From the NCBI GenBank assembly GCA_934045905.1, contig OW203767.1, positions 29,324,520 through 29,388,519 of the forward strand: a DNA stretch of 64,000 bases, given 5' to 3'. This DNA comes from Leuctra nigra. Lineage: Eukaryota > Arthropoda > Insecta > Plecoptera > Leuctridae. Under the pieces are notes generated by a model. That model saw only the letters and a list, made by a program, of their open reading frames with translations. It did no database searches and was not told the origin of the DNA. The position numbers were made by a program, and so were the translations under genes. Below are positions 8,303 to 59,318 of the stretch, piece by piece (within the stretch, counting starts at the first letter, position 1; the number at the start of each line of letters is the position of its first letter).

Positions 8303-8392
8303 ATGAAGACAGCTCCGTGGCTATTGCCTCTCATCTCCATCTTGGTCTGCGTCTCAGCACATGACTTTCCCCGACCAGAGTACAATGCCAAG
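8303..8392 (+). CDS. DUF1091 (ML-like) secreted protein, exon 1: signal peptide
   Basis: First coding exon of a four-exon gene (8303-8392, 14660-14821, 17931-18086, 19401-19556), 187 residues in all, every junction in phase 0. This exon encodes 30 residues, starting MKTAPWLLPLISILVCVSA, a textbook signal peptide with cleavage likely after VSA, then HDFPRPEYNAK. The start was chosen because it gives the signal peptide. The donor is AAG|GTAATGG at 8392/8393. Oddly, the last 18 exonic bases and the following 25 intronic bases form the unit of a 65-copy tandem array, so the true donor is the first of many equal ones. Only this first donor keeps the frame into exon 2 without added residues. The family, known mainly from insects, is secreted; ligand and role are unknown. 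Confidence 0.85.
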
Positions 8393-11178
8393 GTAATGGA
8401 AGAGAGTATGATAAAGACCAGAGTACAATGCCAAGGTAATGGAAGAGAGTATGATAAAGACCAGAGTACAATGCCAAGGTAATGGAAGAGAGTATGATAA
8501 AGACCAGAGTACAATGCCAAGGTAATGGAAGAGAGTATGATAAAGACCAGAGTACAATGCCAAGGTAATGGAAGAGAGTATGATAAAGACCAGAGTACAA
8601 TGCCAAGGTAATGGAAGAGAGTATGATAAAGACCAGAGTACAATGCCAAGGTAATGGAAGAGAGTATGATAAAGACCAGAGTACAATGCCAAGGTAATGG
8701 AAGAGAGTATGATAAAGACCAGAGTACAATGCCGAGGTAATAGTAGAGAGTATGATAAAGACTAGAGTACAATGCCAAGGTAATGGAAGAGAGTTTGATA
8801 AAGACCAGAGCACAATGCCAAGGTAATGGAAGAGAGTATGATAAAGACCAGAGCACAATGCCAAGGTAATGGAAGAGAGTATGATAAAGACCAGAGAACA
8901 ATGCCAAGGTAATGGAAGAGAGTATGATAAAGACCAGAGCACAATGCCAAGGTAATGGAAGAGAGTATGATAAAAACCAGAGCACAATGCCAAGGTAATG
9001 GAAGAGAGTATGATAAAGACCAGAGCACAATGCCAAGGTAATGGAAGAGAGTATGATAAAGACCAGAGCACAATGCCAAGGTAATGGAAGAGAGTATGAT
9101 AAAGACCAGAGTACAATGCCAAAGTAATGGAAGAGAGTATAATAAAGACTAGAGTACAATGCCAAAGTAATGGAAGAGGGTATGATAAAGACCAGAGTAC
9201 AATGCCAAGGTAATGAAAGAGAGTATGATAAAGACCAGAGTACAATGCCAAGGTAATGGAAGAGAGTATGATAAAGACCAGAGTACAATGCCAAGGTAAT
9301 GGAAGAGAGTATGATAAACACCAGAGCACAATGCCAAGGTAATGGGTGAGAGTATGATAAAGACCAGAGTACAATGCCAAGGTAATGGAAGAGATTATGA
9401 TAAAGACCAGAGTACAATGCCAAGGTAATGGAAGAGAGTATGATAAAGACCAGAGCACAATGCCAAGGTAATGGAAGAGAGTATGATAAAGACCAGAGCA
9501 CAATGCCAAGGTAATGGAAGAGAGTATGATAAAGACCAGAGCACAATGCCAAGGTAATGGAAGAGAGTATGATAAAGACCAGAGCACAATGCCAAGGTAA
9601 TGGAAGAGAGTATGATAAAGACCAGAGCACAATGCCAAGGTAATGGAAGAGAGTATGATAAAGACCAGAGCACAATGGTTCAATGCCAAGGTAATGGAAG
9701 AGAGTATAATAAAGACCAGAGCACAATGCCAAGGTAATGGAAGAGAGTATGATAAAGACCAGAGCACAATGCCAAGGTAATGGAAGAGAGTATGATAAAG
9801 ACCAGAGCACAATGCCAAGGTAATGGAAGAGAGTATGATAAAGACCAGAGCACAATGGTACAATGCCAAGGTAATGGAAGAGGGTATGATAAAGACCAAA
9901 GCACAATGCCAAGGTAATGGAAGAGAGAATGATAAAGACCAGAGTACAATGCCAAGGTAATGGAAGAGAGTATGATAAAGACCAGAGTACAATGCCAAGG
10001 TTATGGAAGAGAGTATGATAAAGACCAGAGTACAATGCCAAGGTAATGGAAGAGAGTATGATAAACTCCAGAGTACAATGCCAAGGTAATGGAAGAGAGT
10101 ATGATATAGACCAGAGTACAATGCCAAGGTAATGGAAGAGAGTATGATAAAGACCAGAGTACAATGCCAAGGTAATGGAAGAGAGTATGATAAAGACCAG
10201 AGTACAATGCCAAGGTAATGGAAGAGAGTATGATAAAGACCAGAGTACAATGCCAAGGTAATGGAAGAGAGTATGATAAAGACCAGAGTACAATGCCAAG
10301 GTAATGGAAGAGAGTATGATAAAGACCAGAGTACAATGCCAAGGTAATGGAAGAGAGTATGATAAAGACCAGAGTACAATGCCAAGGTAATGGAAGAGAG
10401 TATGATAAAGACCAGAGTACAATGCCGAGGTAATAGTAAAGAGTATGATAAAGACTAGAGTACAATGCCAAGGTAATGGAAGAGAGTTTGATAAAGACCA
10501 GAGCACAATGCCAAGGTAATGGAAGAGAGTATGATAAAGACCAGAGCACAATGCCAAGGTAATGGAAGAGAGTATGATAAAGACCAGAGTACAATGCCAA
10601 GGTAATGGAAGAGAGTATGATAAAGACCAGAGTACAATGCCAAGGTAATGGAAGAGAGTATGATAAAGACCAGAGCACAATGCCAAGGTAATAGAAGAGA
10701 GTATGATAAAGACCAGAGTACAATGCCAAGGTAATGGAAGAGAGTATGGTAAAGACCAGAGTACAATGCCAAGGTAATGGAAGAGAGTATGATAAAGACC
10801 AGAGCACAATGCCAAGGTAATGGAAGAGAGTATGATAAAGACCAGAGCACAATGCCAAGGTAATGGAAGAGAGTATGATAAAGACCAGAGAACAATGCCA
10901 AGGTAATGGAAGAGAGTATGATAAAGACCAGAGCACAATGCCAAGGTAATGGAAGAGAGTATGATAAAGACCAGAGCACAAAGCCAAGGTAATGGAAGAG
11001 AGTATGATAAAGACCAGAGCACAATGCCAAGGTAATGGAAGAGAGTATGATAAAGACCAGAGTACAATGCCAAGGTAATGGAAGAGAGTATGATAAAGAC
11101 CAGAGTACAATGCCAAGGTAATGGAAGAGAGTATGTTAAAGACCAGAGTACAATGCCAAGGTAATGGAAGAGAGTATT
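8375..11178 (+). repeat. 43-bp minisatellite repeating an exon end and splice donor (65 donors)
   Basis: The unit runs from GTAATGGAAGAGAGTATGAT to ACCAGAGTACAATGCCAAG, 43 bp. GTAATGG starts at 8393 and last at 11161; the distance equals 64 units plus two 8-bp insertions near 9677 and 9857, so 65 donor positions exist. Most are AAG|GTAATG. Variants include AAA|GTAATG (near 9120 and 9164) and GTTATG (near 9999). Shared rare variants (CCGAGGTAATAG at 8731 and 10424) show segmental duplication of tens of units. The array lies in intron 1 of the DUF1091 gene and starts inside exon 1. Confidence 0.97.
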
Positions 11179-33131: not shown

Positions 33132-34808
33132 CATTATTATTAATAATAATAATAAGTTTTATTGCTCTACAAATTGTATATATACAGGTGGCAGAGATAC
33201 TATCAACTAAAGTTATATTAAGACAATTGAAATGACATAATTATTAATAATAAATATAAACTAAGATACATCGAGGAACAATCTCATCTCCGCGAGTGTT
33301 TCCGGTAACGTTGAAAAACTTAGTTCGTTCCACTCTTGAAATCCAATATCGGCGTGTGAGTTTCGTGCCGCATCTAATTTCACGTTTCTTCTTCTTATCT
33401 TAAATGAGTGATCTTTTCTTCCTACATAATCGGGTTTCTTAATTCTTCGAGACAGATCCTTCCATGCTTCCACTCCAGTGAAGGCTCTGTAAATGTTGCA
33501 GAGCCTTGCTTTTCTTCTCCTATCTTGAAGCGATTCCCAACCCAAGTTCTTTATCATGTCTGAAACACTCTCTGGAACTTGCCTCATGGTCAAAGTCAAT
33601 TCATTTCTTCCCTTTCTACCCTTCTTTGTCTTCACTACTTCCCACTTCCTTCTTCTCATCTTTCCTGTCACTCTTCTCGCAGCCTTTCTCTGAACACTTT
33701 CCACAGCCTTTACTTGTCCTATTTTGTACGGGTCCCAAATTGACCCAGCATAATCAAGAATTGGCCTTATCAATGTCTTGTAAGCCATATTCTTCACACA
33801 TTGCGCTGTGCCTTGCAAATTTCTCATAACAAACGACAATTGCCGCAATCCCTTATTTGACACATAACTTATCTGCTCACCCCAATTCAACCTCTTATCA
33901 AACACTATTCCTAAATATTTACAACTCTCTACATTCTCAATCTTTGATACATCCATCCAATAACTTTCTCTCTGTTCCTCATTCTTTCTTGAAAATCGAA
34001 CAAAATGACATTTATTTGCATTAATTGCCATCTTATTCTGCCTGGCCCAATCAATAACTTTATTAACGTCACTCTGAATTAGGTCTGTCTCAACAGATGA
34101 ACCGTAAATGACAACATCATCAGCAAAAAGTCGACTATTTGTTAACATGCCTCCAACTAAATCATTAATGAAAATGATGAATAGAAGTGGACCCAACACA
34201 CTACCCTGTGGGACACCTGAGGTAACTTCTACTTCATTCGACAAATCAGAGCCCACTCTAACTCTTTGCGTTCTCCCCCACAGGAATGTGGCAACCCAAC
34301 ATACAATTCCATCACACAAACCAGATACTTTCAATTTTTCTATTAGCTTTTGATGAGGTACTTTATCAAAAGCTTTTTCAAAATCAATAAAAATACAATC
34401 TGTATCAATTCTTTTGTCTAAATTATCTAACAAATCTTGTGTGAAACCTACAAGTTGAGATTCACACGAATGCCCATGTCTAAAGCCATGCTGTTGTGGT
34501 GCAAACCATTTCGAGCCCTCCAGAAACTCTCTCATATGATTTGCCAGAACACTCTCCATTAATTTGCAGACTACAGACGTTAGACTTATTGGCCTATAAT
34601 TCTTTGCTTCACTTCTTGCACCACTCTTAAAAATAGGAACAACAATTGCTTTTCTCCACTCCTGAGGTACAACATTGTTGTTAAATGAATTCCTAAACAG
34701 GTGCTCAAGAAATGGCACAACACTTCTACCCGCTAATTTCAAAATATCTGTAGTAATTCCATCAGAACCAGGTGCCTTTCCATTCTTAAGAGAAGTTAAA
34801 ACTTTCCA
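33132..34808 (-). mobile_element. CR1/Jockey-like non-LTR retrotransposon, 5'-truncated
   Basis: Minus-strand element. Its reverse transcriptase frame stops at 33261, then a short 3' UTR runs into a (TTA)n-type tail at 33132-33161, as in CR1-like families. Motifs in order: NGKAPGSDGI, YRPISLTSVVCK, FIDFEKAFDKVPH (catalytic Asp), SGVPQGSVLGPLLF, FADDVVIY (catalytic Asp pair) and YLGIVFD, then a C-terminal tail. The endonuclease and the start of the RT are missing, and similarity begins at about 34808 with KVLTSLKNGK, so it is a dead-on-arrival insertion. The frame itself has no internal stop, which points to a young copy. It inserted within an FABP-like exon 1. Confidence 0.92.
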
Positions 34809-35345
34809 TATATTATTATATATTTTATTATGAATTTTAAAACACATATATAACACATATACACAGGATACATATTATTATACATGCGTTTACTGGCAGT
34901 GGGAATAGAGCGAAGCCCCGTAACAACATGTGCCCCACTGCCAGCTTGAGCAAAAAGTCACAGATACATTAAAAACACATTAAAAAGACAACCATAAAGA
35001 TAAATTAAATTTATACTTATCAAGAATAAATAACAAAATCGTGCGTGAGCACTCGTCGATAAAAACTATTGTTGACTATTTAAAATTCGCAGCCGTAAAT
35101 TTACTGGAAGAGATGGGTGAGTATGTTAATCTGCAAGTGATAACACGAGTATCAGCATTTGTTATTCGTATAAATAATTATCTTCGTCCTTACAAAAAGG
35201 AGAATCGCGACCAATGTAGGCAAAGCGCAGAGTGACTGCAATTACCGTTAAACTAGTTGACGTAATTAACCCAGCAACAGCTGCGACATCAGCACTACCT
35301 AGTGGCGTGATGTGAAGATAGATCATTATGAGAGAATAGGCTTGG
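34809..35345. other. Unassigned sequence with an 11-bp-stem hairpin
   Basis: CTGGCAGTGGG (34893-34903) and CCCACTGCCAG (34934-34944) form a perfect stem. The rest has no recognisable coding content. I cannot find the remainder of the interrupted FABP exon here. Confidence 0.5.
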
Positions 35346-35545
35346 NNNNNNNNNNNNNNNNNNNNNNNNNNNNNNNNNNNNNNNNNNNNNNNNNNNNNNN
35401 NNNNNNNNNNNNNNNNNNNNNNNNNNNNNNNNNNNNNNNNNNNNNNNNNNNNNNNNNNNNNNNNNNNNNNNNNNNNNNNNNNNNNNNNNNNNNNNNNNNN
35501 NNNNNNNNNNNNNNNNNNNNNNNNNNNNNNNNNNNNNNNNNNNNN
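35346..35545. other. Assembly gap (200 N)
   Basis: Exactly 200 N, most likely a scaffold gap of arbitrary size. Missing FABP paralogue exons could be in it. Confidence 1.
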
Positions 35546-37282: not shown

Positions 37283-38613
37283 CATAAAAAAAACACTTCG
37301 TGTAAAAATACCAGCCAAGTCTCTTCAACTAAAAAAAAATTGAAGAAATCTAAAAATTCAGCACTGAAATGTAGTGATATGAAAAATGGCCAAGTCAAAA
37401 CTTTCAAAAAATACTTGGCGCATCGTGCATATAAATAGTATAGAAGTAGGCCGGAAATCAAATATACTCATCTATACATATAATATATCTATAATCCCCT
37501 AAAAAACGATGCGCCAAGTATTTTTTGAAAGTTTTGACTTGGCCATTTTTCATATCACTACATTTCAGTGCTGAATTTTTAGATTTCTTCAATTTTTTTT
37601 TTAGTTGAAGAGACTTGGCTGGTATTTTTACACGAAGTGTTTTTTTTATGGGGATATCACTCCTTTTTTCAGTTTATTCTTACAACTTGTAACATATATT
37701 GTGTCACCAAAGACTATAATTCCTTTAAAAAATACGCCTTTGTGATTTGATTGTTAAGAAAAATTGTGCTTGTTACTATGTATATGCTGTAAATAATATG
37801 CTATGATGAAGTATAGCGAAAGTTTCGTTCCAATTGGTCCAGCCCTTCTCGAGCTATGGCATCACTTCCGGTTTTCAAAATGGCGGTTGACATCACTGCC
37901 ACCTAAAATTTGTATCTATAAATGTTATGTAACATTATAAGCCTTCTGATTATGTAGTTATTGTTCTAAGAGATGATTTTTGTTAGATTTTGCATTTTTA
38001 TGACGTCATTTCCGGTTTTGGTAATAGTACATTTCTATTTCGACTATTGATATTTTATAAAGAAGTCCGTCTGAATCGTTTGGCGCTAGTTTCGTCCCGA
38101 TAGGTTAATCCTTTTTTGAGATATGACGTCACTTCCGGTTTCAAAATGGCGGCACAAAAAATTTGTAAGGGCAAGGTACCATCAGACGCCAAAAGTGCAC
38201 ATGTGGTAAAAATTTTAGGTTGATCGGCTCAGCCGTTTAGGCTGTGGCGGTGATAGCAACGTTTCCTGATATCATCATCATCATCATCATCATCATCAGA
38301 ATCAGAAAGTGGTGTAATTTTACGTATTTCACGGCCCTCTAGCTCGCAAATGGCATAACCTGTTGTTCCCGAATTTGGTATAAGTAGTGGGGTACTTATA
38401 CGTAGTAGTAGTGGGGTTAGTAGCTCGAAATTAAGATATTTCGCAACAATGTGAGATTTTCCAATTTTAAGATCCAGTAGGCCGAAAATGCCATGTTGTT
38501 GCTTACAGTAAAAGTGTTTGGTCTGCTCCTCAGTTTATTAGGCATTTACGGTATGTTGAGTGAGTGTGAGTGTACAGTACGACTTGGCTGGGTGGAGCGA
38601 CCGCTCCACTAGA
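37283..38613 (-). mobile_element. Composite non-autonomous element, copy C
   Basis: On the minus strand it starts TCTAG plus the GTGGAGCG hairpin, has CCGGAAGTGACGTCA-type motifs (+ strand near 37861, 38000 and 38125) and ends with a foldback module (37283-37640). The related copies at 48600 and 61550 give an empty site, AAGCTCTTT(T/A)A, showing insertion with no or at most 1-2 bp duplicated. A (TCA)n run lies at 38273-38300. Confidence 0.85.
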
Positions 38614-39266: not shown

Positions 39267-39604
39267 AATATAATTTAATGGATCGTGCTTCTAGATTTCA
39301 ATTGTTTTACGTATATTATTGATTATGGTTCGAGGTGTTGCACGTATCCGTGCTCGCTTATCAACGTGTTACACAGAGCGTTTTCCTAGTTATATAATTA
39401 TATCACGATACATTTTTCAAGTGCACTTGTGATTTCTCGGCCCCCGAACCGATAGTGAATGAATCATTGTAATTATACACTCTGATAGTCTATTATGTCA
39501 TTGAGTAATGACAACATTTGACTTATGTCTCCAAAGTTCAGTGCTCGAAGGTTACATGCTGGTTCTCCTCCACCCCCACCCCCGCCCCTCACCGACACGG
39601 AGGG

Positions 39605-39672
39605 TATAAATACAAGCTGCTGATATATGCCTCGCTCATTTCATCTTCACATCGATCAGACATCATATCATC
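39605..39672 (+). promoter_or_regulatory. TATA box and 5' UTR of the FABP gene
   Basis: TATAAATA at 39605-39612. A TCATTTC initiator-like site about 30 bp downstream would give a 5' UTR of some 35 nt before the ATG at 39673. A C-rich tract (39570-39592) lies just upstream. Confidence 0.75.
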
Positions 39673-39754
39673 ATGGTCAATGTATCGGCATTCGCCGGCA
39701 AACAGTACAAGTTGGATTCCAGCACCAACTTCGATGAGTACATGAAAGCGCTGG
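39673..39754 (+). CDS. fabp: Fatty-acid-binding protein (FABP/CRABP family), exon 1
   Basis: Intact three-exon gene: exon 1 39673-39754 (phase 1 end), exon 2 44003-44277 (phase 0 end), then a 51-nt terminal exon. The product is 135 residues, the normal FABP length: a cytosolic ten-stranded beta-barrel that carries fatty acids or retinoids. Exon 1 encodes residues 1-27 plus the first base of G28: MVNVSAFAGKQYKLDSSTNF then DEYMKALG. The F.G.(Y/W)KL.SS.NFDEYMKALG block is the family signature (beta-A and helix 1). Donor G|GTAAGT. The phase-1 intron in the L-G codon is at the position of the first intron of vertebrate FABP genes. Confidence 0.95.
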
Positions 39755-41223
39755 GTAAGTCTAGCTCATTATTATTTAATTCCCATACGCGGCTGTTTCT
39801 CTTGATATTTGTTTTATACTCCACTGCGATACGCGCTTCGCTGCTCATGTTGTTATCTCTGTGATTTCATTATTGTGTTGCATAGCAAAATGAGATTTGA
39901 AATTAAAATATTGCAATGCCTATAATATCCCGTGAAGATAATCTTATCGTAGTCAAGATAAGGAGTAGTTGCTATGGCAGGATAGAATGTAATAATAGTT
40001 TTGAGCTATGTGCAATCCTCACGTCCTGACATTTTACCCTTGCCGCTAGACCATCAAGTCGAAGTTATACTTTTCTAGTAGAAAAACCACAATTATTTGA
40101 TTAAATGTAGTTCTTTCCGACTGAAGTTCTTCCGTGGTTTTCCTCAGTCCCGAGGAAAATTCTAGAATCTTCATTTGTACCTAATGGGACTGACCTTCAT
40201 TCGTCATTCCAGTTATCTTCAGTTCATAATCTTTCAAATACTCAAAATATATAGGTTCGACTTTCGAGTCACTATAGATGCCTTATTTATTTTTTATTTA
40301 CATTTCTGAATAATTATTGAATTAGTGTCCTACGTAATGTAAGTATTGGTCTACTTTTTCCAAAACAATTGTCAATAATCTCGATATTCCATGACCTTTG
40401 TACATAAACAATGAGAGTCTATAAGGTATAGAGTCCGATACCAAACTATACATGGAATTCAAGTCCACATTCTTAGCATCAATCACACAACTACAATAGA
40501 TGATTCGATTTAGAAAGAAAATAAAAATGTTTACTTACCTAACATCTGCAATTCAAAATGTTTTAAACATATCAATTCAATGATGTTTATTTTACGCAAC
40601 GTTTACAAATGTTTACTTTGTACCAGCTAATTTGAGGCAGTGGTGCGTATCAGAATTTAGTCAAATTAACCTTGGTCTCTTTTCTGGACCACAATATTAT
40701 TCGCTTTAAACTCTTTCCTAATTCGACGATTTTTTTTTATCAGGACATTCATGCTATGGCTGGATGACAATTAATTAACTTTGTACTACAAACACATTTT
40801 GATGAAATAGAATATTATTTTAACAACACAGCCCAGGATTAAATGCAATTAATTCCGCTGCAATTGTATAAAGTGGTTAAACCTCTTTGTCCGTGTTCTG
40901 CTGTGGAATAACTCTAATTAGCACACACGCATGTCTATCCTGGCGCAATGGCAACGCATGACGGCATTAACAACATTATCGGCGCCGACGTAGGATTTAT
41001 TCATTAGAGGGATGAATATTTTCCAACGCAAGCTCGGCGATCCGTGTTGCTTTCCCGAGGGAAGAAGCTCGTCAGCGATCTCGAAACTCAAAGGAATGGG
41101 GATTATTTAAGGGCCTATTTGCCAACACCCGACAAGGTGTGAAGCGAATTCACTGGAGTTTTTCAGTCGTTAACAGATGCGACGTTTCTCGGTAGCTCAG
41201 TCTCAATGCTATTCAATAGTTCG
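39755..41223. other. FABP intron 1, unassigned part
   Basis: AT-rich intronic sequence with no recognised element or exon. Confidence 0.6.
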
Positions 41224-41625
41224 CAAAGTCACGCGACGATTTTAAAAAATAGTATGCGAGGTCAGACGCGACGTTCTTTTTAAGTTTGCAAGGTTAGACG
41301 CGACGTTTCTTTTAAATGGTTTCAAAGTCAGACGCGACGTTTCTTTTAAATGGTTTTAAAGTCAGACGCGACGTTTCTTTTAAATGGTTTTAAAGTCAGA
41401 CGCGACTTTTCTTTTAAATGTTTCAAAGTCAGACGCGACGTTTCTTTTAAATGTTTCAAAGTCAGACGCGACGTTAATTTTAAATGGTTTCAAATTGAGA
41501 CGCGAAGTTTCTTTTAAATGGTTTCAAAGTCAGACGCGAAGTTTCTTTTAAATGGTTTCAAAGTCAGACGCGAAGTTTATTTTAAATGGTTTCAATGTCA
41601 GACGCGACGTTTCTTTTAATTATTT
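41224..41625 (+). repeat. 34-bp tandem array (about 12 copies) in FABP intron 1
   Basis: The unit is AAGTCAGACGCGACGTTTCT followed by TTTAAATGGTTTCA. Copies differ by point changes (GACGCGAAG, GACTTTT) and 1-bp length changes, so this is an older array than the 74-bp one that follows. Confidence 0.93.
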
Positions 41626-41912
41626 TGGAAGGGATCCCGTAATTTTTTGAAAATCAAAAGCGGATCCCGTTTGACCGATCAACTTAACATGGTCGGGACT
41701 AACATTGTGGGTATTCTTGACAATTTTCATAAAAATGTGTCGTTATCTTCAACAGTTATTGACATTTTACGGACATTTTATACGTGCATGCATTACGAAT
41801 TGGCTCGCTCATCAACAAGTAACACGGAGTTAGTGACACCCTGGAATGAAAGGTCGAGGCGAAATGTTCTGTTGTGTTGACATTGCTCTCTAACTTGTAT
41901 TTATTTCGCTGT
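41626..41912. other. FABP intron 1 spacer
   Basis: Contains a degenerate GGCTCGCTCATCAACAAGTAA near 41801, similar to Helentron-like 3' ends. Nothing else seen. Confidence 0.45.
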
Positions 41913-43399
41913 GAGTCACCTCATGGTCTGGCTTGTTCGCTGCTGTGTCAAGGGAGCATTAGGGATGATGGCGGGGGAGGGGCAGTGAGACGCCTCATGG
42001 TCTGGCTTGTTCGCTGCTGTGTCAAGGGAGCATTAGGGATGATGGCGGGGGAGGGGCAGTGAGACGCCTCATGGTCTGGCTTGTTCGCTGCTGTGTCAAG
42101 GGAGCATTAGGGATGATGGCGGGGGAGGGGCAGTGAGACGCCTCATGGTCTGGCTTGTTCGCTGCTGTGTCAAGGGAGCATTAGGGATGATGGCGGGGGA
42201 GGGGCAGTGAGACGCCTCATGGTCTGGCTTGTTCGCTGCTGTGTCAAGGGAGCATTAGGGATGATGGCGGGGGAGGGGCAGTGAGACGCCTCATGGTCTG
42301 GCTTGTTCGCTGCTGTGTCAAGGGAGCATTAGGGATGATGGCGGGGGAGGGGCAGTGAGACGCCTCATGGTCTGGCTTGTTCGCTGCTGTGTCAAGGGAG
42401 CATTAGGGATGATGGCGGGGGAGGGGCAGTGAGACGCCTCATGGTCTGGCTTGTTCGCTGCTGTGTCAAGGGAGCATTAGGGATGATGGCGGGGGAGGGG
42501 CAGTGAGACGCCTCATGGTCTGGCTTGTTCGCTGCTGTGTCAAGGGAGCATTAGGGATGATGGCGGGGGAGGGGCAGTGAGACGCCTCATGGTCTGGCTT
42601 GTTCGCTGCTGTGTCAAGGGAGCATTAGGGATGATGGCGGGGGAGGGGCAGTGAGACGCCTCATGGTCTGGCTTGTTCGCTGCTGTGTCAAGGGAGCATT
42701 AGGGATGATGGCGGGGGAGGGGCAGTGAGACGCCTCATGGTCTGGCTTGTTCGCTGCTGTGTCAAGGGAGCATTAGGGATGATGGCGGGGGAGGGGCAGT
42801 GAGACGCCTCATGGTCTGGCTTGTTCGCTGCTGTGTCAAGGGAGCATTAGGGATGATGGCGGGGGAGGGGCAGTGAGACGCCTCATGGTCTGGCTTGTTC
42901 GCTGCTGTGTCAAGGGAGCATTAGGGATGATGGCGGGGGAGGGGCAGTGAGACGCCTCATGGTCTGGCTTGTTCGCTGCTGTGTCAAGGGAGCATTAGGG
43001 ATGATGGCGGGGGAGGGGCAGTGAGACACCTCATGGTCTGGCTTGTTCGCTGCTGTGTCAAGGGAGCATTAGGGATGATGGCGGGGGAGGGGCAGTGAGA
43101 CGCCTCATGGTCTGGCTTGTTCGCTGCTGTGTCAAGGGAGCATTAGGGATGATGGCGGGGGAGGGGCAGTGAGACGCCTCATGGTCTGGCTTGTTCGCTG
43201 CTGTGTCAAGGGAGCATTAGGGATGATGGCGGGGGAGGGGCAGTGAGACGCCTCATGGTCTGGCTTGTTCGCTGCTGTGTCAAGGGAGCATTAGGGATGA
43301 TGGCGGGGGAGGGGCAGTGAGACGCCTCATGGTCTGGCTTGTTCGCTGCTGTGTCAAGGGAGCATTAGGGATGATGGCGGGGAGGGGCAGTGAGACGCC
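41913..43399 (+). repeat. 74-bp G-rich tandem array, 20 copies, in FABP intron 1
   Basis: The unit is GAGACGCCTCATGGTCTGGC, TTGTTCGCTGCTGTGTCAAG, GGAGCATTAGGGATGATGGC, GGGGGAGGGGCAGT. The spacing is exactly 74 bp except the last unit (73). The copies are practically identical, with only the first unit (GAGTCACC) and one GACACC variant differing. Each unit carries GGGA...GGG...GGGGGAGGGG on the sense strand, with quadruplex potential in the nascent RNA. Confidence 0.97.
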
Positions 43400-43870
43400 G
43401 ACAAGGTATTGCCAATCAATAGTCCGGCTTTATTCCTGTCATCACGCCGTCGACAGAAACACGGGGATTTCTTATGACGAATAGGAATGGGAAGTAATTT
43501 GATAACTCACGCCTTGGACAGCGTATTCGATTCACTTTTCTGTCAAAAAGTAGTCAAAAGACAAAAATTATGATTTGTTAAAGAATCATCTTGTGAGACT
43601 AAAATTAATACATGCACGTCCATAATATTGTGTTGATGAAGTGACAAATGAATTTATGAGCATTCCCAATTTGTAGGGCAAATTTCCCTCATTGTCTATA
43701 AACACACATACTGTCGATACATACTATCGAAAACTCAAAATCGCAAAAGTATGGTTCAAAATTCATAATGACATAATCTAGCGCTCTGTCCATAGTATAT
43801 TTTTTACAGTTCCCGAGTCCAAAGAACTCGCCAATCCTAGGATGATAGCCAATGTTCAACACTGTCTCCC

Positions 43871-43960
43871 GCCACGTTGCCACATGTACTCCATCCTCTC
43901 TCTCTCTGTCACAGGCGTGGTTCTGCTGACGCGCAAGATGGGCAACACTGTCTCATGAAA
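43871..43960 (+). pseudogene. Duplicated FABP exon 2 acceptor: poison pseudo-exon
   Basis: A 90-bp unit starting GCCACGTTGCCACATGTACT occurs at 43871 and 43961. It contains the polypyrimidine tract, the CACAG acceptor and the first codons of exon 2. In the upstream copy the exon part (from 43915) reads GVVLLTRKMGNTVS and then TGA (43956-43958). Use of this acceptor would truncate the protein. No donor follows within the copy. Confidence 0.85.
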
Positions 43961-44002
43961 GCCACGTTGCCACATGTACTCCACCCTCTCTCTCTGTCAC
44001 AG

Positions 44003-44277
44003 GCGTGGGTCTGGTGACGCGCAAGATGGGCAACGCTGTCAGCCCCGTCATCGAGCTGCTCGTCAACGGCGCCGAGTATACTCTCAAGTCGTCGTCGACC
44101 TTCAAGAACACGGCGACGACGTTCAAGATGGGCCAGGAGATCGACGTGGAGACGGCCGACGGCAGGAGGGCGAAGACGACGTTCACGACCAATGGGAACA
44201 AGTTGTTCGAGTTGGAGAAGAGCGGCGACAAGGAGGCGGCCATCACGAGGGCGTTCAGCGACACGGAAGTCAAGATG
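44003..44277 (+). CDS. fabp: Fatty-acid-binding protein, exon 2
   Basis: 275 nt between TCTGTCACAG|GC and ATG|GTGAGT, encoding residues 28-119: VGLVTRKMGNAVSPVIELLV, then the strands TLKSSSTFKNT, TTFKMGQEIDVETADGRR and KTTFTTNGNKLFE, and AAITRAFSDTEVKM. All are hallmark FABP blocks. Arg110 in ITRAF corresponds to the inner carboxylate-binding Arg of the family. Codon use is GC-rich compared with the surroundings, as expected for a well-expressed gene. The equivalent of one vertebrate intron is absent, so this is a merged middle exon. Confidence 0.96.
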
Positions 44278-44748
44278 GTGAGTGTTCACGTCATCCGGAA
44301 GACTATTCTATAGAATGTTTTCCCAATTCCATTTTGATGGAATCCGGTTACGGCTTTAACATTGCATGGAATCGAATTCCAGTGGAATTGGGAATTTAAA
44401 AGTCTAGTCGCATTGCCCCAGAATTATTTTTTGTAATTCATGAGATTTACGTTTTGAAACCATATACGTTTTCATCGTAAAAAGGTTGAAGGCTAAGCGA
44501 AAAGTTGCAACGCGCAAATGGTTTCAAAACGTGAAACCCAAGAATTGCCCAACTGAGAACTTATGTGAATTTTAGGAACACTAAAAGGTAAAATTTTTGA
44601 ATTTTCCAATTTGAATTATTTCTCGACTTATTAGAATCGTGAACATACGATCATTGTAGAAATAACAAAATATCTCTGAACGCTTAGGGTGCAAAGCGTT
44701 CACTTTCCTCTGAAGAGGCCAAACAAAGCGTAAATCATTCATTTGCAT
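44278..44748. other. FABP intron 2, unique part
   Basis: Unique AT-rich intron between the exon 2 donor and the start of the 143-bp array. No exon-like segment seen. Confidence 0.6.
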
Positions 44749-44810
44749 CATGAGAAATAACATGACGTGACTTGTGCGATTGTCTTGACGATGTTCTTCT
44801 GTTTCCTCAG

Positions 44811-44861
44811 ACCCTGACTGTGGACGACATCGTCTGCACTCGCATCTACAAGGCCGTCTAG
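44811..44861 (+). CDS. fabp: Fatty-acid-binding protein, terminal exon (first of 21 copies)
   Basis: After TTTCCTCAG the exon reads TLTVDDIVCTRIYKAV and TAG, phase 0 from exon 2, giving residues 120-135. It supplies the last beta-strand with Arg130-x-Tyr132, the pair that binds the ligand carboxylate in FABPs, so one copy is needed for function. A transcript using this first copy would carry the other 20 copies as about 2.9 kb of 3' UTR, because the only poly(A) signal is at 47834. Any of the 21 copies would make the same protein, apart from copies 10 and 16. Which copy is used cannot be told from sequence. Confidence 0.93.
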   Translation, partial: TLTVDDIVCTRIYKAV

Positions 44862-47670
44862 ATCTGCACCGTCGCCAGTAGACTGCGACACCATGAGAAA
44901 TAACATGACGTGACTTGTGCGATTGTCTTGACGATGTTCTTCTGTTTCCTCAGACCCTGACTGTGGACGACATCGTCTGCACTCGCATCTACAAGGCCGT
45001 CTAGATCTGCACCGTCGCCAGTAGACTGGGACACCATGAGAAATAACATGACGTGACTTGTGCGATTGTCTTGACAATGTTCTTCTGTTTCCTCAGACCC
45101 TGACTGTGGACGACATCGTCTGCACTCGCATCTACAAGGCCGTCTAGATCTGCACCGTCGCCAGTAGACTGCGACACCATGAGAAATAACATGACGAGAC
45201 TTGTGCGATTGTCTTGACGATGTTCTTCTGTTTCCTCAGACCCTGACTGTGGACGACATCGTCTGCACTCGCATCTACAAGGCCGTCTAGATCTGCACCG
45301 TCGCCAGTAGACTGGGACACCATGAGAAATAACATGACGTGACTTGTGCGATTGTCTTGACAATGTTCTTCTGTTTCCTCAGACCCTGACTGTGGACGAC
45401 ATCGTCTGCACTCGCATCTACAAGGCCGTCTAGATCTGCACCGTCGCCAGTAGACTGGGACACCATGAGAAATAACATGACGTGACTTGTGCGATTGTCT
45501 TGACAATGTTCTTCTGTTTCCTCAGACCCTGACTGTGGACGACATCGTCTGCACTCGCATCTACAAGGCCGTCTAGATCTGCACCGTCGCCAGTAGACTG
45601 GGACACCATGAGAAATAACATGACGTGACTTGTGCGATTGTCTTGACGATGTTCTTCTGTTTCCTCAGACCCTGACTGTGGACGACATCGTCTGCACTCG
45701 CATCTACAAGGCCGTCTAGATCTGCACCGTCGCCAGTAGACTGCGACACCATGAGAAATAACATGACGTGACTTGTGCGATTGTCTTGACGATGTTCTTC
45801 TGTTTCCTCAGACCCTGACTGTGGACGACATCGTCTGCACTCGCATCTACAAGGCCGTCTAGATCTGCACCGTCGCCAGTAGACTGCTACACCATGAGAA
45901 ATAACATGACGTGACTTGTGCGATTGTCTTGACAATGTTCTTCTGTTTCCTCAGACCCTGACTGTGGACGACATCGTCTGCACTCGCATCTACAAGGCCG
46001 TCTAGATCTGCACCGTCGCCAGTAGACTGGGACATCATGAGAAATAACATGACGTGACTTGTGCGATTGTCTTGACGATGTTCTTCTGTTTCCTCAGACC
46101 CTGACTGTGGACGACTTCGTCTGCACTCGCATCTACAAGGCCGTCTAGATCTGCACCGTCGCCAGTAGACTGGGACATCATGAGAAATAACATGACGTGA
46201 CTTGTGCGATTGTCTTGACGATGTTCTTCTGTTTCCTCAGACCCTGACTGTGGACGACATCGTCTGCACTCGCATCTACAAGGCCGTCTAGATCTGCACC
46301 GTCGCCAGTAGACTGCGACACCATGAGAAATAACATGACGTGACTTGTGCGATTGTCTTGACGATGTTCTTCTGTTTCCTCAGACCCTGACTGTGGACGA
46401 CATCGTCTGCACTCGCATCTACAAGGCCGTCTAGATCTGCACCGTCGCCAGTAGACTGGGACATCATGAGAAATAACATGACGTGACTTGTGCGATTGTC
46501 TTGACGATGTTCTTCTGTTTCCTCAGACCCTGACTGTGGACGACATCGTCTGCACTCGCATCTACAAGGCCGTCTAGATCTGCACCGTCGCCAGTAGACT
46601 GGGACATCATGAGAAATAACATGACGTGACTTGTGCGATTGTCTTGACGATGTTCTTCTGTTTCCTCAGACCCTGACTGTGGACGACATCGTCTGCACTC
46701 GCATCTACAAGGCCGTCTAGATCTGCACCGTCGCCAGTAGACTGCGACACCATGAGAAATAACATGACGTGACTTGTGCGATTGTCTTGACGATGTTCTT
46801 CTGTTTCCTCAGACCCTGACTGTGGACGATATCGTCTGCACTCGCATCTACAAGGCCGTCTAGATCTGCACCGTCGCCAGTAGACTGGGACATCATGAGA
46901 AATAACATGACGTGACTTGTGCGATTGTCTTGACGATGTTCTTCTGTTTCCTCAGACCCTGACTGTGGACGACATCGTCTGCACTCGCATCTACATGGCC
47001 GTCTAGATCTGCACCGTCGCCAGTAGACTGGGACATCATGAGAAATAACATGACGTGACTTGTGCGATTGTCTTGACGATGTTCTTCTGTTTCCTCAGAC
47101 CCTGACTGTGGACGACATCGTCTGCACTCGCATCTACAAGGCCGTCTAGATCTGCACCGTCGCCAGTAGACTGCGACACCATGAGAAATAACATGACGTG
47201 ACTTGTGCGATTGTCTTGACGATGTTCTTCTGTTTCCTCAGACCCTGACTGTGGACGACATCGTCTGCACTCGCATCTACAAGGCCGTCTAGATCTGCAC
47301 CGTCGCCAGTAGACTGGGACATCATGAGAAATAACATGACGTGACTTGTGCGATTGTCTTGACGATGTTCTTCTGTTTCCTCAGACCCTGACTGTGGACG
47401 ACATCGTCTGCACTCGCATCTACAAGGCCGTCTAGATCTGCACCGTCGCCAGTAGACTGGGACATCATGAGAAATAACATGACGTGACTTGTGCGATTGT
47501 CTTGACAATGTTCTTCTGTTTCCTCAGACCCTGACTGTGGACGACATCGTCTGCACTCGCATCTACAAGGCCGTCTAGATCTGCACCGTCGCCAGTAGAC
47601 TGCGACACCATGAGAAATAACATGACGTGACTTGTGCGATTGTCTTGACAATGTTCTTCTGTTTCCTCAG

Positions 47671-47721
47671 ACCCTGACTGTGGACGACATCGTCTGCACT
47701 CGCATCTACAAGGCCGTCTAG
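47671..47721 (+). CDS. fabp: Fatty-acid-binding protein, terminal exon (last copy, with unique 3' UTR)
   Basis: Same 16 residues and TAG as the first copy. It is the only copy followed by unique sequence (diverging from CCGTTGCCAAACC on) and, 113 bp later, by AATAAA, so it is probably the ancestral terminal exon from which the array grew upstream. Splicing from 44277 to here gives a compact mRNA of ordinary FABP size. Confidence 0.93.
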   Translation, partial: TLTVDDIVCTRIYKAV

Positions 47722-47833
47722 ATCTGCACCGTTGCCAAACCTCTCATTGTCATCCTGCAGGACCATGTGATAGTCAATTGTTATCTGTTACATTTGGCAC
47801 CATTTCAAAATTATAAATACACGTCTTCTTGTG

Positions 47834-47839
47834 AATAAA
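47834..47839 (+). terminator. fabp: Poly(A) signal of the FABP gene
   Basis: AATAAA, the first one downstream of exon 2 in a plausible place. None occurs in the 143-bp units. Confidence 0.8.
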
Positions 47840-48225
47840 TATTATTTGTGATGTTACAAAAACTATGCTTTCTTTGCTCCAGCCTTCACTTTTTCCGCTG
47901 CTGATTAAATGACTTATCATCTTTGTGATTGATGAAATTAAACATTGAAGCCAGAGGTTACATCTTTTGTTGCCTGCACAATGTTCGATTATAGCCTTCA
48001 AATGAAAATGCATTTTAATTTATGGTGACTTGCAAATTGTATTGTTGCACATCATGTAGAGTAATTTAAAATATGTTCGCACTAATTCTATTGCATAATA
48101 ATTAATGAAACAATACAATATTCCGAATTCGTAAAGTACGTATAGAATTAACTGAAAATTCAATAATTAAGAAAATAAGATCTGTAAGTTTCAAATTTGT
48201 GAACAAAGCGATTAATTTAAATAAT
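47840..48225. other. Unassigned intergenic sequence
   Basis: AT-rich DNA. No gene or repeat recognised. Confidence 0.5.
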
Positions 48226-49701: not shown

Positions 49702-51945
49702 TCTAGTGGAGCGGTCGCTCCACCCAGCCAAGTCGTACTATACACTCACAGTCACTCAACATACCGTAAATGCCTAATAAACTGAGGAGCAGACCAAACA
49801 CTTTTACTGTAAGCAACAACATGGCATTTTCGGCCTACTGGATCTCAAAATTGGTAAATCTCACATTGTTGCGAAATATCTTAATTTCGAGCTATGGCCC
49901 ACCCCACTACATATACCAAATTTGGGAACAATAGGTTATGCCATTTGCGCGCTAGAGGACCGAGAAAACAGTGAAATTACACCACTTTCTGATTCTGAAG
50001 ATGATGATGATTCTGATGATATCACGAAACGTCGCTATCACCGCCACAGCCTAAACGGCTGAACCGATCGACCTGAAATTTTTACCACATGTGCACTTTT
50101 GGCGTCTGAGGTGCCTTTTTATAAAACCAACCGGAAGCCGCCATTTTGAAACCGGAAGTGACATCATAACTCAAAAACGTCTGGACCGATTAGAACGAAA
50201 TTAGCGCCATTCGATTTAGATGGTCATCTATATGAAGTATCAATAAAAAAAATATTATTTTCTTATTTTCTAAACCGGAAGTGACGTCATAAATACGCAA
50301 TATTTAACTTATTTCAACAAATTATACTTAAAATACGTACATAATTAACTTACATTGTAACATAGACAATACAATTTATATATTCAAGGTAGCAGTGTTC
50401 TCGGCCGCCATTCCTGAAACCGGAAGTGACGTCATATATCTAAAACGCCTGTACCGATTGCAACTGAACTAGCTCCTGCGTATTCATTCTGCTATTTATT
50501 TGAAAAATCAATTGTGAAAAATGAATAAATAAATTAATGGTACCGGAAATGGCGGCAGGAACCACTAAATGAAACCGGAAGTGACGTCATATATTACAAA
50601 CGGCATGACCGATTTTACGGAAATATAGGGATTAGGAATTCAGATGGTCGTTCATGAAGGTATCAACTAGATAAAACTAGATTGTTTTCTTATTACCTAT
50701 ACCGGAATTCGGCCGCTATTTCAAAACCGGAAGTGACGTCATGTATCGAAAACGGCTGGATCGATTATAACGAAACTTAAGCTATTCTTCTTGGATAATC
50801 ATTTTCATCTTATACCAAACGCAACTTTTCATAGTAACCAAATCGGTTGAGGCGTATTTTTTTAAAGAAATTAGTCCCTGCTCGGACATGTGCTACAAGC
50901 TGTATGAATAAACTAACAAAAGAAGTGATATCCCAGAAAAAACACTCCGTGTAAAAATACCAGCCAAGTCTCTTTAACTATAAAAAAAAATAGAAGAAAT
51001 CTAAAAATTCAGCACTGAAAAGGAGTGATATCAAAAAAGGAGCCAAGTCAACGAATTTTCCAAATTTTAATCGTACCATTGAAATAAAAATATCAACCCC
51101 CGAGAAATACTTAAAAAAAGGACTTGGCGCATCGTTTTTTTAAAGACATTTTTCTATTCTTAAGCTTAAGCCACTCACATACTACGTAGTTCAGAAATGC
51201 CTAGAAAAATTGGGACAAAACTTTCAAATTAAATATTGAACATTCTGTAAAATATTTTAAATTTAAATATAAGTACGCAAAGAAACATAGCATTGTCTTA
51301 CAAGCAATAAACAGCAACATTTTATACCAAAAAAATTCATAAATTACATAACGTATTACTTTAGATAAAAATCTAGTCAGTAATTATTTGAGCAGCATGG
51401 CTCAGTGCACTAGTCACTTATACAAATCTCATTGACGGCCTTCTTGTAATGAGCGCTTTCGCTATTTCCCTCAGTCACGATATTGAGAAGTATGATTGAT
51501 TAATATGACCCTAGAAATAGTGGCAATAACGAATAGACTAGGCCGCTTCCGTTTATTCGTTATTCGTTTATCCGTTTATTTCCTCTGAATATTGACAAAA
51601 TACCAAAACTGCCAGTAGGTAAGAGTACTAGTTATATTAAAACGTAGTATGATTCGTCGATAATGAATGTGATATACTCAGGAAAATATACTTGTAGAGT
51701 TCTTCCTATACTTTTAGGATAGAAAAGTGTCTTTAAAAAAACGATGCGCCAAGTCCTTTTTTTAAGTATTTCTCGGGGGTTGATATTTTTATTTCAATGG
51801 TACGATTAAAATTTGGAAAGTTCGTTGACTTGGCTCCTTTTTTGATATCACTCCTTTTCAGTGCTGAATTTTTAGATTTCTTCTATTTTTTTTTATAGTT
51901 AAAGAGACTTGGCTGGTATTTTTACACGGAGTGTTTTTTCTGGGA
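49702..51945 (+). mobile_element. Composite non-autonomous element, copy D (long form)
   Basis: TCTAG plus the GTGGAGCG-GT-CGCTCCAC hairpin at the start. CCGGAAGTGACGTCA-type motifs occur at 50152 (ACATCA variant), 50275, 50420, 50575 and 50727. The long foldback module at about 50933-51945 ends ACACGGAGTGTTTTTTCTGG. Nearly identical to copy A (25050-27387) in opposite orientation. Confidence 0.87.
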
Positions 51946-56376: not shown

Positions 56377-59318
56377 TTGAGCGAGCGTAGCGAGCGTCTC
56401 TATTCTGCACTTTTGGACACTTTCTCTGTTTTTTTTGTGTGTGTTTTTTTGTGTGTTTGGACCGACGGCACAGGCCACAATTTTCATTCGATCGAGCTGA
56501 AATTTTGCACACATACTAATATCATTCTAACTTAATCATGTAAAGTTTTTGAGAGCTGTCATTTGATTGGTTCAAAAATAAAATTATCTCCCGATTGGTC
56601 GAAAATCAAAATCTTCCGATTAAGTTCATATTTTGCATGAACATTAAGTCTATTATTTTCTCATATTTTACAAGTTTTCAGCCCAATCATTAGATAACTT
56701 ATGCACTTATTGACATTTTCAATGTTTGTAACTGTCAGAATTGATGGTGTATCGGGAAATTCCACCGCTTTCCGGATTGTTTTATTTATGTACCAAAGTG
56801 TATTTGTATTTGTATTTATAGATTTTATCTAGTGGAGCGGTCGCTCCACGCCTGCCAAGTCGTACGGCGCGTGCACACTCTCATATAAAGGCTGGACAAA
56901 CCCACTTTTACTGTAAGCATCAAAGTGGCATTTTCGGCCTACTGGATCTTAAAATTGAAAAATCTCACATTGTTGCGATATATCTTAATTTCGAGCTATG
57001 GCCCACCCTACAACATATACCAAATTTGGGAACAATAGGTTACGCCCTTTGCGCGTTAGAGGGCCGTGAAAACAGTGTTTTAGGGCGGTTTTCATAATAA
57101 TAATAATCTCAGTAGTAGTAGTAGTAGTCTCCTGGAATTCAAATCCGGTAACATGGCCACAGCCAAAACGGCTGAACCGATTGATCTCACATTTTTACCA
57201 CGTGTGCACTTTTGGCGTCTGATTTAACCTTCACCCCATTAATTTTTTGTGCCGCCATTTTGAAACCGGAAGTGACGTCATATCTCGACAACGGCTATAC
57301 CGATCGGAACGAAATTTGCGCCAAACGATTCAGACGGTAAACTATATGGATTATCAATAGCAACAGACTATAATTTATGTTAACGAAACCGGAAATGACG
57401 TCATGAAATTTGAAATACATCGATTGGCATTTCGGCAACAAATTTGATCCGATTATTTTGTTATTTATGTAACGTATGTACTTTTGATATCTCATTTGAC
57501 TTATTATAAAACCAACCGGAAGCCGCCATTTTGAAACCGGAAGTGACATCATATGTCAATAACGGCTAAATAGATTTGAACGAAACCAGCGCTAAACAAT
57601 TTAGACGGTCAACTTTATCTATTATCATCAATAATATTTGCAGTTTCCCATACCGAAACCGGAAATGACGTCACACATTTTAAAAATCTCACAAATTTAC
57701 ATTTTGATACAATAAATATACTATTTGAGACAGCTTATAATAAAATGTAATCATGTTTAAATTATAATTCAAGGAGTCAGTGATTTCAGCAGCCATTTTG
57801 AAACAGGAAGTAACGTCATATCTTGAAAATTGGTTGACTGATCGGTATGAAACTACCGCCAAACGATTCGGAAGGTCATCTCTATGAAATAGGAACAGTC
57901 ACACTAGAAATTTCCTATTTATAAGACCGGAAATTACATCATTCAAATTTAAAAATTATTATAATCCACTCCTATATAATGAATACATATTCAGAAAACT
58001 TACAATGATACACATCATTTATAGATATACATTCTTTGTGGCAGTGCAGTAAGTTCAGCAGCCATTTTGAAAACCGAAGTGTTGCCATATCTCGGAACTC
58101 GGTTAACTGATAGGAATGAAACCTTTGCTATGCTTCATGAAAGATCATTTAAAGCAAATATATAGTACCATACGCAGATTTTCATTAGTAAACCAAATTG
58201 TCAATGGCGACTATTTTTAATGGATTTAGTAATTGTTCAATTGACGTCACAAGTTCTAAGAATAAACTAAAAAAAGGAGTGATATCCCCATAAAAAACAC
58301 TCCGTGTAAAAATACCAGCCAAGTCTCTAAAACTAAAAAAAATTATGAAATCTAAAAAATTCTGCACTGAAAAGTAGTGATATCAAAAAATGGTCCAAGT
58401 CAAAACTTTATTTGAAAATCAAAAAATACTTGGCGCATCTTTTTTTTAGGGCATAATATGTATACTACATGTATTATGTATATTTGATGTATATTTTCTA
58501 TCTGGTCTATACTTCTAAACTATGTATACACGATGCGCCAAGTATTTTTTGATATTCAAATAAAGTTTTGACTTGGACCATTTTTTGATATCACTACTTT
58601 TCAGTGCAGAATTTTTTAGATTTCATAATTTTTTTTAGTTGTAGAGACTTGGCTGGTATTTTTACACGGAGTGTTTTTTATGGGGATTTAGCTTACTAAG
58701 CCAGTAACATTACAGATACACTTGTTACCAACAGCACATATATTATACACTTAGAAAACATCATCAACTGATTGTCGCTTTATCCACACAATACAATGAG
58801 CTTTAAATGAACATACATGTTTTTCATTTCTAATGTCTACAGGTAACCTGTCATAAATTTTGCTGAGTTTCAATGAAAAACATATACTTGTTGACTGTGT
58901 GGAATATAATACAATTCATAAGGGATGCATATTATATTATGTATAAGTATGACTTCATTTTTTTTCTTTAATATTGATCGTGTTTCACAGTTATATTAGA
59001 AGCAACGTTTTGACTAGATGTAAAATCTCATATTTACACATTATTCCAGCCCAATCGGTAAAAAATGTATACTTATTTCTACTATAAGTGTTTTGAATAT
59101 CTGTTCACAGAGATTGATGGAGAAGTACCTATCAAATTTATGGCACATTGTCCTGTTATTAAATGTTTCCAGAACGTTTATGGAAAGTTGCTATAAAAAT
59201 CATGTAACGATGTATAGTTAGTTATCTTTGATTGAAAAGATGGATCGTGCTCGATTGGCGATGTTGCGCGGGTCGGTGCTCGCTCATCAACGCGTTACAC
59301 AGAGCGTTTTCCTAGTGA
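56377..59318 (+). mobile_element. Helitron/Helentron-like element (copy H5) split by composite element E
   Basis: Starts TTGAGCGAGCGTAGCGAGCG. Its body resumes after 58687 (GAGTTTCAATGAAAAACATA, TTGTTGACTGTGTGG) and it ends CTCATCAACGCGTTACACAG...TTTTCCTAG then T. Copy H6, which follows directly, shows the uninterrupted order. Confidence 0.7.
56828..58687 (+). mobile_element. Composite non-autonomous element, copy E
   Basis: TCTAG plus hairpin GTGGAGCGGTCGCTCCAC, then seven degenerate units with CCGGAA(G/A)TGACGTCA-type motifs (near 57266, 57389, 57537, 57658, 57808, 57926, 58075), several mutated. It ends with a compact foldback module (58283-58687). The interior units are about 120-150 bp. 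Confidence 0.85.

Follow-up and report, generated by a model that had tools for sequence, protein, structure and literature searches.

Background

Minisatellite-like repeats lying over intron-exon boundaries, termed "mirages", have been described in amphioxus for Adh3 and the globins BflGb6 and BflGb9, with PGBD5 and troponin C named beside them in the available parts of the two sources (PMC3087553; PMC3902484). According to the portion of the first source at hand, these mirages reportedly leave regular splicing undisturbed (Adh3, globins; PMC3087553). The array described here lies in a fatty-acid-binding protein (FABP) gene of an insect and shares with the amphioxus repeats, as far as the same portion describes them, the boundary-spanning units, the splice signals present in many units, the homogenised interior and the distinct end units (PMC3087553). 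Its unit of 143 bp is also close in length to the 150-160 bp of BflGb6; however, the BflGb6 unit is given there as the 3' end of an intron joined to an incomplete exon, and two haplotypes contain 6 and 3 units (PMC3087553), whereas the FABP unit contains the whole terminal coding exon with its stop codon, repeated 21 times.

Two further systems are comparable in part. The 3' variable regions of Drosophila pip and PGRP-LC are mutually exclusive terminal exon clusters, and the FABP array resembles them in placing tandem terminal exons downstream of a common part; in the accessible sections of that source, homologous exons or clusters are picked exclusively, whereas 18 of the 21 FABP exons are identical and share one AATAAA (PMC9013439). 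Tandem units bearing a splice signal are likewise found in the intronic VNTR of human ABCA7, where the unit starts with a splice donor and repeat length alters splicing, but these are 25-bp, donor-first units in a human disease gene and no exon is copied, as stated in the available text (PMC5954066). In the literature searched, with most subscription journals outside its scope, no array of whole identical terminal exons was found, and mirages were found for amphioxus only and in no insect; the part of PMC2812944 that was available describes no comparable case.

FABP gene and anatomy of the array

The window, i.e., the whole stretch of 64,000 nucleotides that was analysed (C6, 29324520-29388519), is located on a 39.2-Mb contig of a 536-Mb genome and contains a three-exon FABP gene on its + strand, with the ATG at 39673. 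The second FABP intron may be absent in insects, as in this gene. The spliced product of 135 residues matched Pfam PF00061 (58.5 bits, cut-off 23) and PF14651 (38.5 bits, cut-off 25.4), it also matched solved FABPs (5gge_A, 149.5 bits, residues 6-135), and membership of the family was borne out across the whole protein. Identity to relatives was 50-73% among the 120 matches listed of 174, and the named ones were nearly all insect. The Laodelphax FABP matched at 68% at most, which makes that species an unlikely source. An FABP filed under Gregarina sp., a gregarine, shares 70% identity with the window FABP, possibly by host contamination of that dataset. Four exons are usual in FABP genes, and the available part of PMC2949604 lists the desert locust as departing from this rule.

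The features of the gene are as follows (window positions, strand, description):

39605..39611, +, TATAAAT resembling a TATA box, ahead of the FABP gene, read in the sequence, candidate promoter element
39673..39754, +, coding part of FABP exon 1 (27 codons and 1 base), by homology of the spliced protein
39755, +, exon 1 donor GT
41261..41619, +, 34-bp minisatellite in intron 1, 10.7 copies (Tandem Repeats Finder)
41911..43399, +, 74-bp minisatellite in intron 1, 20.1 copies, 99% matches (Tandem Repeats Finder)
43871..43958, +, 88-bp duplicate of the exon-2 acceptor and exon 2 start, within the tandem pair 43871-44040
44003..44277, +, FABP exon 2, by protein homology
44278..44283, +, donor for the exon-3 copies, ATG/GTGAGT, 8 of 9 consensus matches
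44749..47737, +, 143-bp array, 20.9 copies (Tandem Repeats Finder); full units hold an acceptor, the whole terminal coding exon and 30 bp past the stop
44811..44861, +, exon 3, first copy (TLTVDDIVCTRIYKAV, then stop); next copies at 143-bp steps
47671..47721, +, exon 3, last copy (copy 21), nearest the poly(A) signal, predicted to be the main copy
47834..47839, +, AATAAA poly(A) signal, the sole AATAAA between the donor and 47950

The units of the 74-bp minisatellite include a donor-like GTGAGA. For the 143-bp array, Tandem Repeats Finder gave a period of 143, 20.9 copies, 98% matches and a score of 5782, in agreement with the 21 copies at exact 143-bp spacing from 44749 that an earlier note on this DNA had described; the end placed there at 47733 was corrected to 47737, the last copy being partial (129 of 143 bp). 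Each full unit is composed of 62 bp of intron end, 51 bp of exon and 30 bp after the stop, in the order branch-like TTGAC, pyrimidine tract, CAG, 16 codons, TAG and 30 bases. The A of TTGAC sits 22 bases ahead of the last intron base, and we take the motif, by its consensus, to be a putative branch site. Exon-3 copies begin at 44811 + 143n (n = 0-20) and all translate as TLTVDD(I/F)VCTRIY(K/M)AV followed by the stop; the C-terminal Arg-x-Tyr of FABPs, here a putative ligand-binding motif, is thus present as TRIY in 21 of 21 copies. The tract and CAG were likewise retrieved in every copy, as noted earlier, the 28 bases up to and including CAG occurring in two forms one base apart (15 and 6 copies). 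Relative to the consensus, copy 21 has 13 deviating positions, and 12 of these fall within the 3' part of the copy.

A genome search with the 143-bp unit returned at least 21 matches, every one inside the window array, and a pattern laid over the unit-to-unit junction, used to trace the origin of the joining bases, matched only the 20 junctions in the window. The count of 21 derives from one assembly. With tandem units that straddle an intron-exon boundary, pyrimidine tract and CAG in all of them, an interior homogenised in trimer blocks (see below) and a distinct end unit (copy 21), the array is a boundary-spanning minisatellite of the mirage kind, enlarged to a complete terminal exon. Because the unit takes in that complete exon, each copy ends the protein. 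A long translated repeat was dismissed for exon 3, as every copy stops at TAG and 143 is not a multiple of 3, and the long antisense frames across the array were set aside as a consequence of repetition.

Splice and poly(A) signals

All copies follow a single donor GT at 44278, directly after the end of exon 2 at 44277. In a crude pyrimidine count the 21 acceptors were equal in strength, and 42 of the 3585 + strand AGs of the window, these 21 included, scored at least as high. The best donor within the 143-bp unit reached 6 of 9 consensus matches vs 8 of 9 at 44278; serial inclusion of several copies is improbable with in-unit donors of this quality, the joining of copies to each other appears unlikely, and one copy would be taken per transcript.

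Thirteen poly(A) hexamers were scanned for and none was located within the array; AATAAA follows the last copy only, as the earlier note had described. TATAAA and AATACA stand directly ahead of this AATAAA at 47834, and the exon of the last copy starts 163 bp ahead of it. From the first copy to the last, the predicted intron 2 lengthens from 533 bp to 3393 bp; the 3' UTR would lie between about 133 and 2993 nt if cleavage is assumed 15 bases past the signal.

By the usual definition, alternative last exons each have their own poly(A) signal. Here, the array is devoid of all 13 hexamers and AATAAA occurs only at 47834; an alternative terminal exon cluster is further contradicted by the identity of 18 of the 21 exons and the presence of just two single-residue variants. 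Regulated mutually exclusive exons were consequently rejected, the copies being nearly identical and served by one AATAAA.

Variation among copies, growth and selection

The three exons that depart from the common sequence belong to copy 10 (exon at 46098; I>F), copy 15 (exon at 46813; silent) and copy 16 (exon at 46956; K>M). The 16 codons and TAG claimed for each copy were recovered, while the two substituted copies had to be raised to three. Eight variable positions were found in the units when the 3' part of the last copy was set aside, and copy types are set by three unit positions (42, 138 and 143), from which a regular block structure emerges:

45750..47465, +, copies 8-19 as four 429-bp trimers with a common diagnostic-base pattern except one base in the first trimer

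The trimer types run (GCC, AGT, GGT), then (GCC, GGT, GGT) three times. The mean number of differing positions was 1.24 at lag 3 vs 1.95 at lag 1 and 2.11 at lag 2, a similarity matched by 41 of 20000 permutations, or, with a correction for the choice of lag (1-6), by 185 of 20000. Divergence per site amounted to 1.3% among copies 1-20 and to 0.6% for the 18 same-phase trimer pairs. Unequal exchange of several units at a time, the process that we infer here, leaves just such a pattern in threes, and the pattern bears out the proposal of the earlier note that a minisatellite containing the exon was homogenised by unequal crossover. The single-copy changes, including the three in the exon, presumably arose later.

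The same variants bear on a possible assembly artefact, in which a locus of one or few copies would have been expanded during assembly. Near-identical tandem repeats are error-prone, and a 200-N gap is located 4 kb upstream of the gene; on the other hand, private and phased variants form a regular pattern across the copies, no N occurs from 39600 to 47900, the contig spans 39.2 Mb, and sister genes carry arrays of other units (see below). The phasing argues against trivial assembly duplication while being compatible with a wrong copy number. We give such an artefact very little credence, although the exact number of copies may still be wrong.

The exon copies contain two replacement changes vs one silent change, with opportunities of 115:38, and variable sites are distributed as 3 of 51 within the exon vs 5 of 92 outside it (P = 1.0). 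Neither the replacement/silent ratio nor the comparison of variable sites supports purifying selection on the copies, which agrees with the earlier verdict that such selection was unclear; no selection on the exon copies was detectable, in a test that the small number of changes makes weak both ways. Moreover, the chance of a critical change, defined as a hit to the acceptor AG or the branch site or as a stop gained or lost, was 0.056 per random change. As the number of random changes rises from 8 to 14, the probability of no critical change accordingly falls from 0.63 to 0.45, or from 0.34 to 0.15 with pyrimidine-to-purine changes in the tract also counted. Since unbroken copies are unsurprising in a young array, the 21 intact acceptors are no evidence of function, and the intact splice sites fit youth alone.

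Boundary repeats in sister genes and choice of copy

A genome search with the protein revealed an FABP gene cluster at C6 29.18-29.37 Mb, consisting of eight three-exon FABP genes (A-G and I, the window gene) and one relic, the latter with a repeat of its own:

32752..33117, +, relic with a 155-bp unit, 2.4 copies, containing a piece of FABP exon 1 (MLTAFSGKRYNLESST) with CCAGCA runs

The exon-2 acceptor is repeated in three of the seven sister genes, with 10 copies in C, 3 in D and 10 in F, and is present twice in gene I. In paralog C (G000:C6:29250327-29251000; L030), 70-bp units across the acceptor occur in 10 copies (9.6), eight of them with the AG in register; two of the nine upstream copies read CAAG instead of CAGG, which shifts the AG by one base, and both also yield a premature stop when read at the displaced AG. 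The three boundary copies of paralog D, spaced 129 and 143 bp, were missed by Tandem Repeats Finder. Paralog F (G000:C6:29286569-29287822; L033, L016) contains 129-bp units in 10 copies (9.7) with 99% matches; its unit equals 43 codons and stays open, resulting in a 567-aa frame.

Use of an upstream acceptor leads to a premature stop in 9 of 9 upstream copies of C, 2 of 2 of D and in the single one at exon 2 of gene I, where the duplicated acceptor (exon start 43915) gives GVVLLTRKMGNTVS and then a stop. In F all nine upstream acceptors keep the reading open and in frame while adding 43 codons per unit, and their use, to judge by the reading frame, would produce an FABP carrying a repeated insert. 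Because upstream acceptors give stops, C, D and I must, if these genes work, rely on the acceptor closest to the donor, and across the exon-2 arrays all copies but that one are presumably unproductive. Under exon definition it is the acceptor nearest the downstream donor that is productive. Applied by analogy to exon 3, this points to the last copy, which lies closest to the poly(A) signal, as the probable main choice.

The opposite choice, first-come splicing, would take the first copy by default and leave a 3' UTR of about 3 kb composed of 20 unused exon and acceptor copies. It would profit from the shortest intron (533 vs 3393 bp), from the earliest transcription of that copy and from the equal crude strength of the 21 acceptors, yet its terminal exon of about 3 kb would enclose 20 equal competing acceptors, and upstream copies cannot be productive in C, in D or at exon 2 of gene I. 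Regular splicing in the amphioxus precedent, as given in the available part of PMC3087553, also speaks against it, and overall we regard use of the first copy as unlikely, albeit with some real chance of being right.

In contrast to the exon-2 arrays, any exon-3 copy completes the protein; other exon-3 choices thus cost little, and the array could reach 21 copies. The repeat units vary in length and extent among the genes. Three of these, C, D and E, share the peptide encoded by exon 3 but have 10, 3 and 1 exon-2 boundary copies, respectively; both observations suggest rapid turnover of the arrays. The earlier statement that the array is unlike known ones holds in part only, as amphioxus mirages and the arrays of its own gene cluster resemble it; the exon-2 arrays of the sister genes are closer to the amphioxus kind than the exon-3 array is.

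Whether selection might keep the array as a functional rheostat, its acceptors setting 3' UTR length in 143-nt steps or serving as a back-up, can be weighed against the same cluster. All 21 copies are splice-competent by sequence and a UTR range of 133 to about 2993 nt would be possible. Intact copies are, however, unsurprising at such a young age, no selection signal was detected, block amplification together with the nearby arrays accounts for the repeat without a function, and a search within 3 kb retrieved just one exon-3 acceptor in each of the seven other three-exon paralogs. A rheostat is hence considered highly improbable, and the functions proposed in the earlier note (stepped 3' UTR, splicing back-up) are not needed to explain the array.

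Distribution of arrays relative to acceptors

Fifteen acceptors were checked for extra copies and acceptor A2 by Tandem Repeats Finder. As the window gene had prompted the question, tests were also performed without it. With the window gene included, repeats were present at 5 of 16 acceptors vs 0 of 16 donors (P 0.04) and vs 253 of 2738 random positions (P 0.013), the random draw leaving out FABP exon surroundings and the 143-bp array; compared with GC-rich random positions (84 of 489), P was 0.18. Circular shifting placed 4 of 16 acceptors in arrays of period >=50 (mean 0.97, reached in 270 of 20000 shifts). Without the window gene, 2 of 14 acceptors lay in such arrays, a count equalled or exceeded in 2689 of 20000 shifts (mean 0.65), and repeated acceptors vs donors were 3 of 14 vs 0 of 14 (P 0.22). 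The recurrence of boundary repeats in the FABP cluster is therefore a fact, while their enrichment at acceptors is without support once the window gene is omitted.

For a second gene family, 30 stretches of 1100 bases around P450 match starts, taken irrespective of exon boundaries, were hand-picked from the first 44 of 98 matches. Arrays of period >=50 were present at 1 of 30 P450 starts vs 3 of 8 FABP exon-2 starts (window gene included; P 0.024), and the sole P450 array (L065) is coding, its units keeping the frame of the P450 exon. This repeat (G000:C4:30656048-30657147, bases 1-548) has a 54-bp (18-codon) unit (LDSNRISSGSDEKTLHSF) with 98% matches and extends beyond the fetched stretch, to which its 10.1 copies refer. 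The dispersed FABP-like loci L038 and L039 also contain arrays, none of them at the matched exon.

Proposed origin and consequences

Taken together, we propose, with a probability of roughly 0.6, that the array is a young mirage minisatellite that is tolerated as any copy completes the protein, with the last copy providing the main product and no function needed. A 143-bp segment running from the 3' end of intron 2 through the whole of coding exon 3 and 30 bp into the 3' UTR would have been duplicated in tandem, and the array would then have grown as several units at a time were exchanged unequally. This growth could be tolerated by virtue of the anatomy described above, each copy supplying an acceptor, the last 16 codons and a stop, while poor in-unit donors would restrict every transcript to one copy. 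Use of the last copy would give a terminal exon of normal size, the other 20 being removed as intron; use of earlier copies would alter the length of the 3' UTR and nothing else, except that copies 10 and 16 would each exchange a single amino acid. The array is most likely without a function of its own.

A more far-reaching alternative is a copy-number-variable splicing switch, in which all or many acceptors are used, the mRNAs form a ladder of 143-nt steps in the 3' UTR and the output follows allele length. We consider it improbable. If true, boundary minisatellites, which recur at exon 1 (the relic), at exon 2 (four genes) and at exon 3 (one gene), would supply new intron-exon structures, among them gene F with its 129-bp (43-codon) in-frame units.

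Returning to the tolerated minisatellite, the locus would show a whole terminal exon multiplying almost unseen by selection at the protein level, and it extends boundary-spanning minisatellites from amphioxus to an insect gene cluster. With one donor, 21 near-identical acceptors at fixed steps and one AATAAA, it is also a natural experiment in acceptor choice, which the sister genes with 10, 3 and 10 boundary copies before an internal exon extend.

Other features of the window

A repeated frame (TEEQTKHFYCKQQHGIFGLLDLKIGKSH...) is present in three copies at 38232-38534 (- strand), 49781-50059 (+ strand) and 56822-57094 (+ strand), the third being diverged; a homologue search with the second copy (49781-50059) returned none. 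The assembly gap upstream of the FABP gene consists of 200 N at 35346-35545, about 4 kb from it. On the minus strand, 33264-34874 contains a reverse transcriptase frame of 537 aa (PF00078) with identities of at most 49% among the 120 relatives listed. At 8373-11177, a 43-bp minisatellite of about 65 copies is accompanied by long minus-strand open frames, which are probably mechanical.
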